Source: Bradyrhizobium sp. AT1 (lineage in GTDB: Bacteria > Pseudomonadota > Alphaproteobacteria > Rhizobiales > Xanthobacteraceae). Taken from it: a stretch of DNA of 64,000 bases. The notes under the pieces were generated by a model that had not been told where the DNA came from, made no database searches, and saw only the letters and a list, made by a program, of their open reading frames with translations. Each line of letters begins with the position of its first letter. The first letter of the stretch is position 1. The stretch is taken from assembly GCF_001590795.1 (NCBI RefSeq), contig NZ_JXDL01000001.1, forward strand, positions 167,911 to 231,910, read 5' to 3'. Positions 52,376-57,035 of this stretch are shown in pieces. The position numbers and the translations under genes are program-made.

Positions 52376-53716
52376 TCAGTCCTTCCACGGGTCGAACTCG
52401 CCTTCGCCGGCCATGGCGACGGCGAACGGCCGCAGCGTGTGCAGCACCTTCACGGTCCCGGCGTGCTGTGCCAGCACGTCCGGCAGACGGCGATAGGCCA
52501 TCGGGCTCTCGTCGAGGTCGGCACCGATCAAGGTGACGCCGCGCTCGTTGAGCCACTGGTCCATCTCCGCGCGCGAGAAGCGCCGCTTCGCCTCCCGTCG
52601 CCCGAACAGGCGGCCGGCGCCGTGCACGGTCGAGTAGAGCGAGGCCTTGGCTTCCGGACTGTCGACGCCTTCGAGAATGACGGCGTCGTCGCCCATCGAG
52701 CCGCCGACGAATCCCTTCTGGCCGGGAAACGCCGGCGTCGCGCCCTTGCGCACCACCCACAGATCCTTGCCGTCGTGAGTCTCACACCAGGCATAATTGT
52801 GGTGGTTGTGCACGCTCTCGGTGACGCTGCCGCCGATGATCTGGCGGACGCGCTCGACGACCCACTCGCGGCCCGCATAGGCATATCGCCCGGCGAGCTG
52901 CATCGCCGCGATGTAGCGGCGGCCGAGTTCGCTATCCTCGTCGACCACGGCGGGCGGGACGTTCATGCCGTCCTTGCCGCCGGCGGCCTTGAGGTAGCGC
53001 GTCGCGGAGGTGTGCCCGAGACCGCGGCTTCCGAAGTGGACGCCGATCCAGACGAAGCCGTCCTCGTCGCGCATGAGATCGACGTAATGGTTTCCCGACC
53101 CGACCGTGCCGAGCTGGCTCACCGCCTTCTGACGGTAGGCCTCCATGTCGCTCTCGCGCCAGGCATCGCCGTCGTCGAACAGATCGTGCTCGGCGCGTTC
53201 GGCATTGGCACGGCCGACGCCGAACGAGATCGTCCTGGCGACGTCGCGGATGATCGTCGGCACGAGGCTTGCGATGTCGTCGAAGCGCGTGTCGAGGCGG
53301 GCCGCCATGTTGCCGCAGCCGATGTCGAAGCCGACGCCGGAGATGCTGATCTGCTTCTCATAGGCGATGACCCCGCCGACCGGCTGCGCATAGCCGAGAT
53401 GGCCGTCGGCACAGATCACGCCGGACACGACGTTGCCGACCGCCATGCAGTTGCGCATCTGCGCGATCGTCGCGTCTTCGTGCGGGCCGAACACCTTCAG
53501 CGGCGCGTTCTGGAAGCGGGCATCCTGCATCCGGAACTCGGCGATCGAGCTGGCGGTCGCATTGGCCTCACGGGCCAGATGCTCCTTGCGCGCGGCATCC
53601 TTGTACAGGCACCAGGCCGGCTGGCCGCGTCCTTCGCCGACGCGCGAGTCGGGATCGACACCGGCAGCGAGGCAGAGCTCGCGGGCGCGTTCCATGTAGG
53701 GATCGGGTCGTCGCAT
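52376..53716 (-). CDS. rtcB: RNA-splicing ligase RtcB
   Basis: A 446-residue RNA ligase that joins 2',3'-cyclic phosphate or 3'-phosphate ends to 5'-OH ends with GTP and Mn2+. Visible key residues are D104 and H106 (CADGHLGY), C134 (GFDIGCGN), H210 (GSGNH), H227 (VHFGSRGLG) and the guanylylated histidine H365 (STVHGAGRLFG). Length is usual for the RtcB1-like subgroup. An AAGGA site precedes the ATG. It follows the Ro60 gene on the same strand after 112 bases, in an RNA-repair operon with Y RNAs. Confidence 0.95.
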   Translation of the reverse strand: MRRPDPYMERARELCLAAGVDPDSRVGEGRGQPAWCLYKDAARKEHLAREANATASSIAEFRMQDARFQNAPLKVFGPHEDATIAQMRNCMAVGNVVSGVICADGHLGYAQPVGGVIAYEKQISISGVGFDIGCGNMAARLDTRFDDIASLVPTIIRDVARTISFGVGRANAERAEHDLFDDGDAWRESDMEAYRQKAVSQLGTVGSGNHYVDLMRDEDGFVWIGVHFGSRGLGHTSATRYLKAAGGKDGMNVPPAVVDEDSELGRRYIAAMQLAGRYAYAGREWVVERVRQIIGGSVTESVHNHHNYAWCETHDGKDLWVVRKGATPAFPGQKGFVGGSMGDDAVILEGVDSPEAKASLYSTVHGAGRLFGRREAKRRFSRAEMDQWLNERGVTLIGADLDESPMAYRRLPDVLAQHAGTVKVLHTLRPFAVAMAGEGEFDPWKD

Positions 53717-53783
53717 GGTCTTAGGTCCTTGTCATTCCACGCGCACCATAGAGGCGCGGGCGGATCATTTCAGAGAGTTCGCA

Positions 53784-53814
53784 GGCCCCGGGCGCAAAGG
53801 CTGCGTCCGGGGCC
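53784..53814 (-). other. strong hairpin between the Ro60 and rtcB genes
   Basis: GGCCCCGGGCGCA (53784-53796) pairs with TGCGTCCGGGGCC (53802-53814) along 13 positions with one G-T pair. In the minus-strand transcript no T run follows, so it is more likely a processing, stability or ribosome-stalling element than a terminator. In the plus direction ATTTTC follows. Confidence 0.55.
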
Positions 53815-53828
53815 ATTTTCGTTGTGCA

Positions 53829-55154
53829 TCAGTGCAACGCCGTCTCCGACGCCGCGATCCACGCGACCACGGCCTCTGAGAAGCCGTTGACGCGGGTCCA
53901 GGCGCCGTGGCCGACGCCGTGCTGATACGAAGCCACGTTCACTATGGTGCCGCGCGCCCTGGGCTCGGGCACCTCGTCGTGGCTCTGCTCGTCGGTGAAG
54001 ACGATGAGGCGATCGCCCTTGCGGTCGATCTCCGCCACCGCCTTGCCGAGCCAGGTCCCGCTATGCGGCTGCGAGTTGATGATCGCATCGCGAAGCGCGA
54101 AGCCGCGACGGGGAGGGACCTTCACCACCCTGTCGGAGAAGGTGAAGATCTCGACCTCGTCGCAGATCTCGCGTGCGAGAATCGCCAGACCGCACGCCGC
54201 CTCCGCGCGCGTCATTTCCGACTGCGCGGAGAGGGTCGCGAACATCGAGCCCGACACGTCGATCAGGAGCCGGGTGCGGCCCGGAAGCCGCACATGGTCC
54301 TTGACCGACTTGAGCATCGCAGCCTCAAGCTCGGGCTCGAAGTCCGGCGCATAGCGCGCCGCCGTGATGAAGCGGTAGGGAAGGATACGATCCGTCCGCA
54401 TCGCCTCGATCGCGCCTGCGATGGTCTCGCGCGGGACCTGCGCAGTCTGCATCAGCCGCAGGTTGCGCAGCAGCGCCAGGCCGCCGAGCTTGCGCTCGGC
54501 GATCAGCCGCTCGAAGGTCTCGCGCTTGCTCTTGCCGGCCGAGAGCGAGACCTCCCAGGTGTCGGGGGAGGCGAGCTCGCCGTCGACGAGCTGCTTCCAG
54601 ACCTTCGCCTGCTCGGCGTCCTTCGGCTTGGCGTGCACCAGAAACAGCACGTCCCTGATCCGCACCGCGCCGTCGCGGTCCCACTTGGCGAGCTGGTAGG
54701 CGTCGAACTTGGTCAGCGCGCGGGCAAGACCCTTCTTGACCTGCGCGGAGACCGGCTGACGCTTGCGCTGCTGCATCGGCCCCAGCGCGTCCGCCCAGTA
54801 GATCGCGAGCAGCTCCGTCATCTCGTCGGGCCGCTGGATCACCTGAGCGAGCGTGTCAGCCACGAGGGCGCGGTGCTTTTCGCTGCGCGCCATCTCGCGG
54901 ATGACGAGCAGCGGCGCATGCCGCAGCTTCATCACCTCGCGCGCCTCGATCGCGAGCTGCGCGACGCGCGCAGGCGCGACCTTGGGCACCAGGGCCTTGA
55001 TGCGGTCGGCGATCGCGACGCCATCCTCGTAGAACTGGTCCTCCCACAGGAGGCAGTTCATCAGCGCGCGCTTCAGCTCCATCTCGGGCGTAAAGCGGAC
55101 TGCGCGCGCGCCCTCCCGCGTGAAGGCGCGAACGATCTTGTTGAGCCTGACCAT
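53829..55154 (-). CDS. rsr: TROVE-domain Ro60 orthologue (Rsr-like RNA-binding protein)
   Basis: A 441-residue protein. Residues about 20-285 form the HEAT-like TROVE ring (ALMNCLLWEDQFYEDGVAIA, KLRHAPLLVIREMARSEKHR, KRQPVSAQVKKGLARALTKF, WEVSLSAGKSKRETFERLIA). Residues about 290-441 form a von Willebrand A-like domain with the MIDAS motif DVSGSM (D299, S301, S303) and FTFSDRV. Ro60 and bacterial Rsr bind Y RNAs on the outside of the ring and misfolded RNA ends in the hole, and guide exoribonucleases. The ATG follows GAGGAGG. Four Y-RNA-like units lie directly upstream on the same strand, and rtcB follows. Confidence 0.93.
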   Translation of the reverse strand: MVRLNKIVRAFTREGARAVRFTPEMELKRALMNCLLWEDQFYEDGVAIADRIKALVPKVAPARVAQLAIEAREVMKLRHAPLLVIREMARSEKHRALVADTLAQVIQRPDEMTELLAIYWADALGPMQQRKRQPVSAQVKKGLARALTKFDAYQLAKWDRDGAVRIRDVLFLVHAKPKDAEQAKVWKQLVDGELASPDTWEVSLSAGKSKRETFERLIAERKLGGLALLRNLRLMQTAQVPRETIAGAIEAMRTDRILPYRFITAARYAPDFEPELEAAMLKSVKDHVRLPGRTRLLIDVSGSMFATLSAQSEMTRAEAACGLAILAREICDEVEIFTFSDRVVKVPPRRGFALRDAIINSQPHSGTWLGKAVAEIDRKGDRLIVFTDEQSHDEVPEPRARGTIVNVASYQHGVGHGAWTRVNGFSEAVVAWIAASETALH

Positions 55155-55194
55155 GACGGCCTCCTCTTGGGTTGATTGTCGAATGAAGCGGGGT

Positions 55195-55329
55195 GCCGGG
55201 GAACTAGCGAGTGCTGAACTGCCCTTGCGGGCAAGTCACACGCTCTACCGCTGAGCTACGGACTTTCGTCCGGAAGGAATCGAACCTTCGACATTGCGAT
55301 CCGAAGTAACAGCGCTCTTCACCACCGGC
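55195..55329 (-). ncRNA. yrlA: Y-RNA-like (YrlA-type) RNA, unit D
   Basis: Minus strand, 135 nt. The closing stem pairs GCCGG with CCGGC. Then comes the conserved internal loop TGGTGAA against GCTAGTTCC, and an inner stem GAGCGCTG with CAGCACTC. Inside is a permuted tRNA mimic. The T arm is GAAGG-TTCGATT-CCTTC (55289-55273). It is followed at once by an acceptor-like hairpin CGGAC-GAAA-GTCCG (55272-55259), then a D arm GCTC-AGCGGTA-GAGC (55256-55242). A further hairpin TGCCC-GCAA-GGGCA follows at 55233-55220. The unit ends 41 bases before the Ro60 ATG. YrlA RNAs of other bacteria bind the Ro60 orthologue and imitate tRNA in this way. Confidence 0.82.
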
Positions 55330-55348
55330 GGTGGGGAACGAAGGGACA

Positions 55349-55504
55349 CGATCCGGGAACAGGCGATTCTGTGACCCGGCAAGCGACAGCTTGCCGGAAA
55401 GCGCTCTGGCCACTGAGCTACCGGTGCATGGTACACCGGGCGGGATTCGAACCCGCGACCTCTCGCGTGATAGGCGAAGTAACAGAGATCTTCACCACGG
55501 ACCG
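55349..55504 (-). ncRNA. yrlA: Y-RNA-like (YrlA-type) RNA, unit C
   Basis: Minus strand, 156 nt. Closing stem CGGTCCG with CGGATCG (one G-T pair), internal loop TGGTGAA against GCCTGTTCC, inner stem GATCTCTG with CAGAATC (one bulged C). Core: T arm GCGGG-TTCGAAT-CCCGC (55456-55440), hairpin CCGGTG-N7-CACCGG (55439-55421) in place of the acceptor end, and D arm GCTC-AGTGGCCA-GAGC (55418-55403). A 9-base-pair hairpin CCGGCAAGC/GCTTGCCGG (55397-55376) follows. It is the most complete tRNA mimic of the four. Confidence 0.82.
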
Positions 55505-55514
55505 TGATGGGGTT

Positions 55515-55637
55515 GGCGGGGAACGAGCGATGCTGTTGCTGCCCTTGCGGGCGATCCGCCTTGCGGCGCGCAGGGTTCGAACCTGCTCGGCGCTTTCGCG
55601 CCTTTACCACGAAGTAACAGGCATCTTCACCACCGCC
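55515..55637 (-). ncRNA. Y-RNA-like RNA, unit B
   Basis: Minus strand, 123 nt. Closing stem GGCGG with CCGCC, internal loop TGGTGAA against GCTCGTTCC, inner stem GATGCCTGTT with AACAGCATC (one bulged C). It has a hairpin GGCGC-GAAA-GCGCC, a T arm GCAGG-TTCGAAC-CCTGC (55586-55570) and a hairpin CGCC-GCAA-GGCG, but no D arm. A GCCC-GCAA-GGGC hairpin matches the one in unit D. The Ro60-binding end is therefore kept and half of the tRNA mimic is lost. Confidence 0.75.
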
Positions 55638-55669
55638 AGGCCGGTGCTTTTGCATCGGCCGTTGAGGGG

Positions 55670-55855
55670 AACGCTGGGGAACGGGCGATATCGGCTTTCA
55701 GTGACGACAACACAGTCCCTATCCTTGCGGACGGATCCTGCGCCGGGCCGCGTGCGAACCTTTTCCGAGGCCGCATCCCGGTGCGTGTGTCAAAGGCGGG
55801 AGGCATACCCGCTTTGCCGTATGGAGAAGTATCCGACATCTTCACCACCAGCGTC
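55670..55855 (-). ncRNA. Y-RNA-like RNA, unit A (divergent)
   Basis: Minus strand, 186 nt, first in the array. Closing stem GACGCTGG with CCAGCGTT (pairs throughout with one G-T), internal loop TGGTGAA against GCCCGTTCC, inner stem GATGTCGG with CCGATATC. The ends thus match the other units exactly. The core differs: a CATAC/GTATG hairpin, a T-loop-like TTCGCAC (55758-55752) without a clear stem, an ATCC/GGAT hairpin, and no D arm. Confidence 0.7.
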
Positions 55856-56092
55856 GGTTGAGCCGCGATGAGCGCGGCAAACCGAGTTACAAAAATTCTG
55901 TCGCGGCGCTGTCGACGCGCCGCAAATTGCGAACCATTCGGGTTCGCTCTGCCATCGGTGTCCGGCTCATCGCCTCGTTCCCTCCGGCAGGCCCCGCGCA
56001 GCTAGGCACGCGCCTCTCCAGCGCGAGCCCCGAGATCCGGGTCTCTCGTTCCGGCGATTGCCGGGTTGTTCGATCGGGCCGTGCGGAAGGCA
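55856..56092. other. upstream region of the Y-RNA array
   Basis: No gene is supported here. A perfect hairpin GCGAACC-ATTCG-GGTTCGC lies at 55929-55947. The promoter for the minus-strand Y RNAs should be within this stretch, close to 55860-55900, but no convincing -35/-10 pair was recognised. Confidence 0.35.
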
Positions 56093-56222
56093 ATAAAAAA
56101 CCCTCCGGAGCGGCAGGCTCGGGAGGGTCCGTGAGAAGCGGACGATCGATCTTGCGGTCAGGCAAGATCGCTCCCATGAGCCGGGCATGCGCCATCGAAT
56201 AGCTTTTGGCTATTCGGCATGC
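56093..56222 (-). ncRNA. structured small RNA with Rho-independent terminator
   Basis: On the minus strand three hairpins follow each other. The first is GAATAGC/GCTATTC (56215-56197) inside a GCATGC/GCATGC frame (56222-56185). The second is GATCTTGC/GCAAGATC (56169-56148). The third is ACCCTCC/GGAGGGT (56128-56100) followed by a TTTTTT run, a clear intrinsic terminator. Short open readings such as MPNSQKLFDGACPAHGSDLA cross the first two hairpins, but the density of perfect stems argues for an RNA. It ends before the Y-RNA promoter region. Its family was not recognised. Confidence 0.55.
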
Positions 56223-56360
56223 TGACAATTCTTTCGTAGCGGTATGACATCGCTCGGTTCATGGTGCTTGTCGCAAACGGAAGTGTCTGCGAGGGCGCGG
56301 GACATACGCCCGCAACTTGCGGATGTCAAGCGATGTGCGTGCGAAAATCGAAAATGACGG

Positions 56361-57035
56361 ATGCGTGACGTGCCGGCCTATCTCGGTCTCGATGGATTTC
56401 GCTTCGGTTGGGTTGCTGCGTGGATCGACGAACGCGGCGATCACGGCTTCGATTTTTCGCCGGGACTTACACGTCTGCTCGCGATGCCGCACGCGCGCGC
56501 GATGATCGACATGCCGATCGGATTGAACGTGCGCGGATATCGCGCGTGCGATCTGCGCGCGCGTGAGCTGATCGGCCCTGCGGTGTTTCTCGGTGCGCGC
56601 CGCGGGCTCTGGGCGTTCCCGGACATGGCCGCGGCCAATCGCTACTACTGGGAGCACGAGGGCAAGGGCAGGGGCGTCTCGGCGCAGCTCTGGAACATCA
56701 GAGACAAGCTGAGGGAGGTCGACGACGTCATGACGCCGACGCGGCAAGCGACGATCGGCGAAGCTCATCCGGAATTGATCTTCTGGAATCTCGCGGGTCA
56801 GGTCCGGCTCGAACCGAAGACGTCGCCACGCGGCCGGATGCAACGCATTGCTCTGCTGAGGGACCGGGGTTTCACCAAGGTCGAACGTTGGCTGGCGCTT
56901 CGGCACGGCACCGGCATCGGCCGCGACGATCTCATCGACGCGTGTGCCTGCGCGGTTGCGGCGCGCGACAGCATGCATTTCGTCGGTGACGGCAAGACCG
57001 ATCCGCGCGGCTTGCGGATGGAGATCAACTATTGA
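56361..57035 (+). CDS. DUF429 family protein
   Basis: A 224-residue protein with the RNase-H-like DUF429 pattern: YLGLDGFRFGWVAAWID at the start, MIDMPIGLNVRGYRACDLRA, TPTRQATIGEAHPELIFWNL and DDLIDACACAVAARDS, placing acidic residues (D13-type, D in IDMPIGL, E in GEAHPE, D in DLIDA) as in nuclease-like folds. Function is unknown; a predicted nuclease is the usual suggestion. It starts at ATG 56361. Confidence 0.85.
   Translation: MRDVPAYLGLDGFRFGWVAAWIDERGDHGFDFSPGLTRLLAMPHARAMIDMPIGLNVRGYRACDLRARELIGPAVFLGARRGLWAFPDMAAANRYYWEHEGKGRGVSAQLWNIRDKLREVDDVMTPTRQATIGEAHPELIFWNLAGQVRLEPKTSPRGRMQRIALLRDRGFTKVERWLALRHGTGIGRDDLIDACACAVAARDSMHFVGDGKTDPRGLRMEINY

Follow-up and report, generated by a model that had tools for sequence, protein, structure and literature searches.

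The window analysed here is a stretch of 64,000 nt from Bradyrhizobium sp. AT1 (assembly GCF_001590795.1, contig NZ_JXDL01000001.1, positions 167,911-231,910 of the forward strand). On its minus strand, four units, U1 to U4, precede a gene for a TROVE/Ro60-like protein (rsr), itself followed by a gene for an RtcB-like RNA ligase (Table 1). A first-pass annotation of the sequence had described the four as a tandem array of Y RNA-like RNAs upstream of a Ro60 gene, and all were located exactly where it had placed them. Measured from outer stem to outer stem, that is between predicted ends, U1 to U4 span 186, 123, 156 and 135 nt, and U4 ends 40 bases before the rsr ATG.

The Ro60 assignment holds as well, the rsr product matching Pfam TROVE at 46.3 bits (cut-off 23). 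It scores 21.7 bits with the Ro60 vWA model, under the cut-off of that model, and because it reaches only 19.3 of 900 bits with the NCBI Rsr equivalog model we regard this Rsr as divergent. Its PDB relatives by sequence are the TROVE proteins 9l5y and 9kop (E ~1e-24). The ligase scores 226.5 bits with its model.

Relatives were sought by scanning one genome per species with short exact Rsr peptides, which favours close relatives. The best 80 of the 112 loci with an Rsr relative were retained, from Bradyrhizobium, other Hyphomicrobiales, Hyphomonadaceae, further Alphaproteobacteria and three Acidobacteria; with the window they make up 81 entries. An rtcB gene lies 3' of rsr on the same strand, within 1500 bases, in 36 of the 80 related loci, and was not found in 38 where at least 1500 bases are available past rsr. 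Thus, coupling with RtcB is not general. RtcR and RtcA gave no match in the Bradyrhizobium sp. AT1 genome, the E. coli control being positive for both; consequently, this is not a Salmonella-type operon and its regulation differs.

Table 1. Predicted genes, RNA units and structural elements around rsr (positions of the window)
Feature	Positions	Strand	Remarks
Promoter-like TTGACA-17-TATGTC	56301-56329	minus	TTGACA in 40/41 aligned entries; putative function
Leader ORF, 30 codons + stop	56158-56250	minus	ATG in 66/66 aligned sequences
Covarying hairpin around leader-ORF stop	56148-56169	minus
Intrinsic-terminator-like hairpin with T run	56095-56127	minus	by eye; kept to Hyphomonadaceae
Second terminator-like hairpin	55891-55923	minus	just 5' of U1; closes conserved structured stretch 55891-56080
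U1, predicted Y RNA unit 1	55855-55670	minus	handle + long variable domain
U1 T-arm stem	55796-55812	minus	loop TATGCCT; TTCGAAT-like in many relatives
U2, predicted Y RNA unit 2	55637-55515	minus	R1 covariance model 44.6 bits
U2 GAAA-capped hairpin	55589-55602	minus
U2 T arm	55570-55586	minus
U2 capped stub	55557-55568	minus
U3, predicted Y RNA unit 3	55504-55349	minus	Rfam YrlA 36.9 bits
U3 anticodon arm	55462-55478	minus	loop CTATCAC
U3 T arm	55440-55456	minus
U3 acceptor stub	55421-55439	minus	ACCA in cap
U3 D arm	55403-55418	minus
U3 extra hairpin	55376-55397	minus
U4, predicted Y RNA unit 4	55329-55195	minus	Rfam YrlA 37.2 bits; R1 82.4 bits
U4 T arm	55273-55289	minus
U4 acceptor stub	55259-55272	minus
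U4 D arm	55242-55256	minus
U4 hairpin	55221-55232	minus
rsr, TROVE/Ro60-like protein, 441 aa	53829-55154	minus
rtcB-like RNA ligase, 446 aa	52376-53716	minus	112 bases 3' of rsr

The four units share one covarying handle

All four units carry the same handle, composed of an outer stem, one bulged U, a GG/CC step, an internal loop of UGAA against GCNNGUU and an inner stem. The strands TGGTGAA and GCNNGTTCC are invariant across U1-U4. The closing stems differ in sequence and still pair as annotated, e.g. GGCGG/CCGCC, CGGTCCG/CGGATCG and GCCGG/CCGGC, and the single bulged C of the inner stem reported for two units is seen by eye in U2 and U3. The loop had been read as TGGTGAA facing GCnnGTTCC: the invariance of its strands is right, their being wholly unpaired is not, since RNAalifold pairs the GG of TGGTGAA with the CC of GTTCC, which yields the bulged U, the GG/CC step and the smaller internal loop given above.

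Pairing of the outer stem was assessed on units found by motif only (TGGTGAAGA, then the next GTTCCC at most 215 bases away, the stem itself not being used). This gave 264 units, at least one in 78 of the 81 entries. With the true partner, positions 2, 3, 4 and 5 of the outer stem are paired in 99.2, 99.2, 96.6 and 93.9% of units; when the partner is swapped within the array (732 swaps), these values fall to 62.8, 71.7, 38.9 and 73.9%. As many as 44 distinct 5-bp outer stems occur among the 264 units. The covariation had been put forward as a mark of selected RNA structure, which the swaps bear out, and the pairing is kept in related strains. Folding of single sequences gives z values of -0.51 (U1), -2.14 (U2), -4.12 (U3) and -1.77 (U4), unremarkable for all except U3. 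On the alignment of U4 alone (A2, in which the outer stem of rows L045, L046 and L048 is misaligned), RNAalifold proposes another fold without the outer stem; the structure named here far outscores it on the identical alignment.

Specificity of the handle and probable kinship with Y RNAs

Searched without mismatch in the 7.53-Mb genome, a 22-base handle pattern finds the four units only. Two mismatches add 8 sites, as against 3 for a backward-pattern control. Among 289 genomes of the class, three match: that of strain AT1 (four sites), G004 (two) and G037 (one). In G004 the matches stand upstream of an 80%-identical Rsr, and a looser scan finds seven handles there, two of them with a common 3' end; G037 is devoid of TROVE. 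Seven of the 289 genomes have a TROVE gene, and five of these (G283, G042, G045, G148 and G252) contain neither an Rsr relative (tblastn, 1e-8) nor a handle (scan). The pattern was also searched in 2.9 million viral contigs, where it occurs in 59 stretches, 29 of them with an rsr relative too; since no rsr relative is found in the other 30 fetched stretches, many of the matches would be due to chance.

R1, a covariance model of U3 built from 26 rows including the window U3 itself, scores 181.3 bits on U3, 82.4 on U4, 44.6 on U2 and 32.7 on U1, and matches nothing else in the window. In 23 chosen sources (242,773 bases, including phages, a Deinococcus plasmid and an Acidobacteria locus), every match at E<0.01 lies upstream of rsr. 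At E<=1, the AT1 genome gives 21 hits: the four units, six fetched hits that all proved to be tRNA genes (Asn, Asp, Trp, Phe, Arg and Met) and 11 others.

The Rfam YrlA model matches U4 (37.2 bits) and U3 (36.9 bits, partial) at E ~3e-5 and leaves U1 and U2 unmatched; no unit attains the gathering score of 69, so they are not filed as RF02553. ARAGORN called no tRNA in the window. Bacterial Y RNAs in the broad sense lie beside a Ro60/Rsr gene, have a bulged or looped end stem and come with a tRNA-like domain, and all three features are found at this locus. Together with the YrlA matches and the handle, present at 78/81 rsr loci and in about half of the matching viral stretches beside an rsr relative, they support the view that the units are predicted bacterial Y RNAs. 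The survey of Chen 2014 is said to report at least one tRNA-like Y RNA per species.

Predicted tRNA-like folds

At least two of the RNAs are predicted to fold like a tRNA opened elsewhere in the chain. As deduced from its sequence, U3 represents a whole tRNA cloverleaf in circularly permuted order, the chain being opened immediately 5' of the anticodon stem: the handle is followed by an anticodon arm (5-bp stem, 7-nt loop), the variable loop AGGTC, a T arm, a capped acceptor stem and a D arm. U4 has no anticodon arm; U2 retains the T arm alone; U1 has, in this clade, a T-arm stem without T loop and no tRNA features. The graded tRNA mimicry noticed at first was right and even understated, as U3 retains its anticodon arm.

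In the alignment of U3 (26 sequences), 97.1% of cells are paired and 9 of 41 pairs show two-sided changes, a count equalled in 17 of 500 shuffles; the covariation score is 0.203, against 0.100 for shuffled and at most 0.055 for slid alignments. The U4 alignment (21 sequences) has 95.4% of cells paired, two-sided changes at 7/31 pairs and a score of 0.168, against 0.090 shuffled and at most 0.098 slid; its further pair types do not rise above shuffles, 171/500 of which reach the count. As shuffles ignore kinship, weight is given here to the slid and swapped controls instead.

Type A modules, to which U3 and U4 belong, were also un-permuted by script and submitted to ARAGORN, which called 75 of 127 as tRNA (50 of 60 for the third place of the array), against none of the 127 raw units and none of 635 shuffled modules. 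The un-permuted window U3 is called tRNA-Asp with anticodon ATC; the window U4 is not called. A T arm is present in at least one unit at 73/76 loci with two or more units, and 56 of the 209 units with a T arm display an anticodon-like arm (7-nt loop, U33, R37), as do 0.9% of shuffles. Along the rsr tree (45 entries), anticodon positions 34, 35 and 36 change 13, 15 and 15 times, position 37 twice and U33 never; the mean for 134 fourfold sites of rsr is 4.6 (95th percentile 12, maximum 18). Columns of the extra hairpin are equally fast, with up to 16 changes, so that the triplet varies freely or diversifies without being unique in this respect; array-to-array exchange could also have inflated these counts. 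At the acceptor cap (55421-55439; A1 columns 72-84), 11 of the 26 U3 sequences read NCCA, one base and the 5' strand; the cap looks as though the two ends of one tRNA had been ligated to each other.

A second arrangement, type B, comprises the U2 units of ten loci of the Bradyrhizobium type and four further units, each from a different Hyphomonadaceae-like locus. Strict motifs picked 7 sequences and looser ones 16, of which two are type A (L004 second unit, L060), leaving 14 aligned. Its predicted order is D-arm 3' half, anticodon-like hairpin without a proper anticodon loop, T arm, acceptor stub and D-arm 5' half, the handle leaving from the D loop. In the alignment, 91.5% of cells are paired, 13 of 39 pairs show two-sided changes and the covariation score is 0.182 (0.075 shuffled, at most 0.087 slid). 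The D stem, 87% paired, has no two-sided change, hence covariation gives no support to this helix. The window U2 would be a reduced type B module.

Array size, phages and plasmids

Looser detection, in which the stem itself was used, gives 301 units in the 81 entries: four units in 49 entries, three in 12, five in 7 (two of them, L002 and L025, include a doubtful far-upstream match), six in one, seven in two, two in 5, one in 4 and none in one. Low counts are lower bounds because some loci are cut off close to the array. In 42 of 52 Bradyrhizobium-type entries the number of units within 1000 bases is exactly four; units at the same place align across relatives, and their order is conserved. 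Four in a row, held to be unusual at first, is thus the usual number here, with a maximum of 7, or 8 in one phage when two methods are combined.

By tblastn, 82 phage records out of 50,697 and 20 plasmid records out of 72,556 contain an Rsr relative, with identities no higher than 60%. Stretches from four phages and from one Deinococcus plasmid were read. In Caulobacter phage CcrPW the scan finds seven units (outer stems of 7 to at least 12 pairs) and R1 an eighth place; in a Xanthomonas phage each method gives three, and further ones are visible by eye; in Brevundimonas phage Bambus the scan gives three and R1 four; in Kikimora the scan gives none and R1 four (E<0.01); in the plasmid the scan gives two. 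Scans of the reverse strand found no unit in any of the nine sources tested. These phage loci resemble the window by similar tandem handles before a TROVE gene (Brevundimonas, Caulobacter, Xanthomonas); they differ by GGTGGCGTAG or GGTGGTGTAG in many units, and two of the four records label one unit as a tRNA (tRNA-Ser or tRNA-Thr).

The tRNA-Ser of Kikimora (L159 2766-2840) and the tRNA-Thr of 10KY502B (L162 2759-2826), annotated before rsr, coincide with the anticodon arms of handle-borne Y RNA candidates. In the Y RNA candidates of viral contigs L148 (~3646) and L149 (~1627), anticodon stem and T arm are identical and the anticodon loops read CTGTGGA and CTGTTAA, respectively. The CcrPW unit at L161 ~2619-2755 has, by eye, the look of a Ser/Leu-like tRNA with a long variable arm, its neighbours being class I-like. 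Two Brevundimonas phages also match the Rfam permuted tmRNA model a few kb from rsr (L159 6341-6686, 57.7 bits; L160 6765-7022, 57.9 bits; gathering 47).

A leader element upstream of the array

Upstream of U1 lies a leader element (56330-56095, minus strand) comprising a promoter-like site, a short ORF, a hairpin around its stop codon and a terminator-like hairpin. The ORF has 29-35 codons among relatives; its frame is open in 66/66 sequences, the other frames in 32 and 22. The stop-codon hairpin shows two-sided changes at 5 of 6 pairs. A leader profile matches 71 of 80 rsr loci, a few at the terminator end alone and L055 downstream of rsr only. Among 41 genomes (that of AT1 and 40 relatives), 11 have this Rsr, and 10 of these carry the leader; the other 30 genomes lack it, the 15 rsr-free ones of the same genus among them, and so does G320, which has an rsr (54% Rsr). 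Rfam gave no credible match at the leader. A small stem, GGTTTGCCGCG/CGCGGCTCAACC, stands immediately 5' of U1.

We consider an attenuator, a small protein gene and a separate RNA as candidate identities for this element. Codon positions do not support a conserved protein, the minority bases being distributed as 149/133/97 over positions 1/2/3 (30 ORFs, 34 codons). A consensus scan of 53700-56450 found no sigma-70-like promoter, nor did it report the promoter-like site at 56301-56329; having also missed the hairpin at 56127-56095, it is weak for terminators. Sigma-54/RtcR control appears unlikely: the TGG-N9-TGC at 55936-55922 is kept in place in 6 of 68 entries and RtcR is absent. Such sites stand at other places in some loci.

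Discussion

That bacterial Y RNAs mimic tRNA, and do so in circularly permuted form, is already known (PMC11472068). In YrlA, of 90-150 nt, the basal stem binds Rsr and the tRNA-like domain PNPase (PMC8394870), the Y RNA thus tethering Rsr to PNPase (PMC8394870, PMC4726728), and the structure 6CU1 can be superposed on tRNA once a circular permutation is allowed for (PMC11472068). The units described here are like YrlA (RF02553; Salmonella 6CU1) by their place beside rsr, their basal stem with internal loop and their circularly permuted T, acceptor and D arms. Unlike YrlA, they remain below the Rfam cut-off and come as four different units. Moreover, U3 has an anticodon arm with a 7-nt loop, whereas the Rfam YrlA consensus and the part of PMC8394870 at hand show D, T and acceptor arms only. 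As in the Salmonella rsr-yrlBA-rtcBA operon, rsr, Y RNAs and rtcB are together; in contrast to it, the Y RNAs are 5' of rsr, number four instead of two and have a leader ORF element upstream. Compared with the RtcR-controlled RNA repair operon, rtcB is beside rsr here, whereas rtcA and rtcR are absent from the genome. The lower stem of vertebrate Y RNAs, the Ro60 site, is likewise a helix close to the ends in which one bulged nucleotide precedes unpaired bases (PMC4726728); its bulge is a C instead of the U found here, no kinship is shown, and the same paper denies homology between the Y RNAs of bacteria and those of vertebrates. In the available parts of the literature searched, a scope in which the primary survey (Chen 2014) does not fall, there is no mention of arrays of four or more, of an anticodon arm, of a D-loop opening or of a leader element.

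We consider it fairly probable that the four handle-sharing RNAs bind Rsr and that their tRNA-shaped domains serve as adaptors through which enzymes that handle tRNA are brought to Rsr, for the repair or decay of RNA. The array would be transcribed as one unit with rsr and rtcB and the precursor cut into single RNAs, one of which would be held by each Rsr ring. The tRNA-like part could then recruit partners such as PNPase, as described for Deinococcus, or RtcB, and different units may attract different partners. An adaptor set with several tRNA faces would extend the known model of a Y RNA tether between Rsr and PNPase. Points against it are that no unit attains the YrlA gathering score, that U1 is without tRNA features in this clade, that coupling with rtcB is not general and RtcR and RtcA are absent, that no sigma-70-like promoter scored, that two terminator-like hairpins stand between the promoter-like site and U1, and that some pair counts of U3 and U4 are also reached by shuffles.

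Alternatively, the RNAs could be decoys: tRNA look-alikes held by Rsr would divert anticodon nucleases or other attackers of tRNA, RtcB would reseal the cuts, and phages would do likewise. The anticodon-like arms with U33 and R37, the rapid turnover of positions 34-36 around a fixed U33, the capped acceptor end, the adjacent rtcB and the arrays of phages all fit such a role, and PMC7790460 raises YrlA as a possible competitive inhibitor of the nuclease. However, the extra hairpin changes as fast and array exchange may inflate the counts, an anticodon arm is missing from every unit of the window except U3, and Salmonella YrlA is not a substrate of that nuclease according to PMC7790460; we judge decoys unlikely. 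A wider version appears quite unlikely: a bank of tRNA decoys under translational control. It would combine acceptor-capped permuted look-alikes presented by Rsr, whose anticodons run an arms race with tRNA-cutting toxins and nucleases; a 30-codon leader ORF, its stop within a switch hairpin, which opens the operon when translation stalls upon tRNA damage; and an array copied by phages as counter-defence. In this version, the fact that the tRNA circle is opened at two different points (5' of the anticodon stem or within the D loop), together with a relic of CCA at the joint, would mean that the mimic arose from a circularised tRNA.

It is also conceivable, and in our opinion very unlikely, that the array acts chiefly as a structured 5' UTR controlling rsr and rtcB, its units not being separate RNAs. 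The closeness of the last unit to the rsr ATG would suit this role, as would the leader ORF and terminator upstream and the consensus scan, which reported no minus-strand terminator-like hairpin between units and is weak on this point as it missed one at 56127-56095. On the other hand, each unit is closed by its own handle, resembling a family of trans-acting RNAs, Y RNAs are separate molecules in known systems, and the number of units varies from 1 to 7 with the locus. Finally, that an overlapping ORF (136 aa on the minus or 166 aa on the plus strand, both open in the window) is a real gene is rejected as having next to no probability, such ORFs being kept, with at least 90% stop-free coverage of the best match, in just 3/46 and 7/46 Bradyrhizobium-type loci.

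Returning to the adaptor set, one handle combined with permuted tRNA folds suggests that Ro60 likely draws on several tRNA look-alikes encoded at this locus. Work on bacterial Y RNAs covers few species, and the literature available to us describes one or two RNAs for each. Four different mimics of tRNA attached to a common Ro60 handle, with a full predicted cloverleaf including an anticodon loop among them, would offer a direct probe of what the variable part recruits. The handle search reveals unrecognised Y RNA candidates in phages, two of them annotated as tRNAs, and the leader ORF would provide a testable switch for an rsr operon devoid of RtcR.
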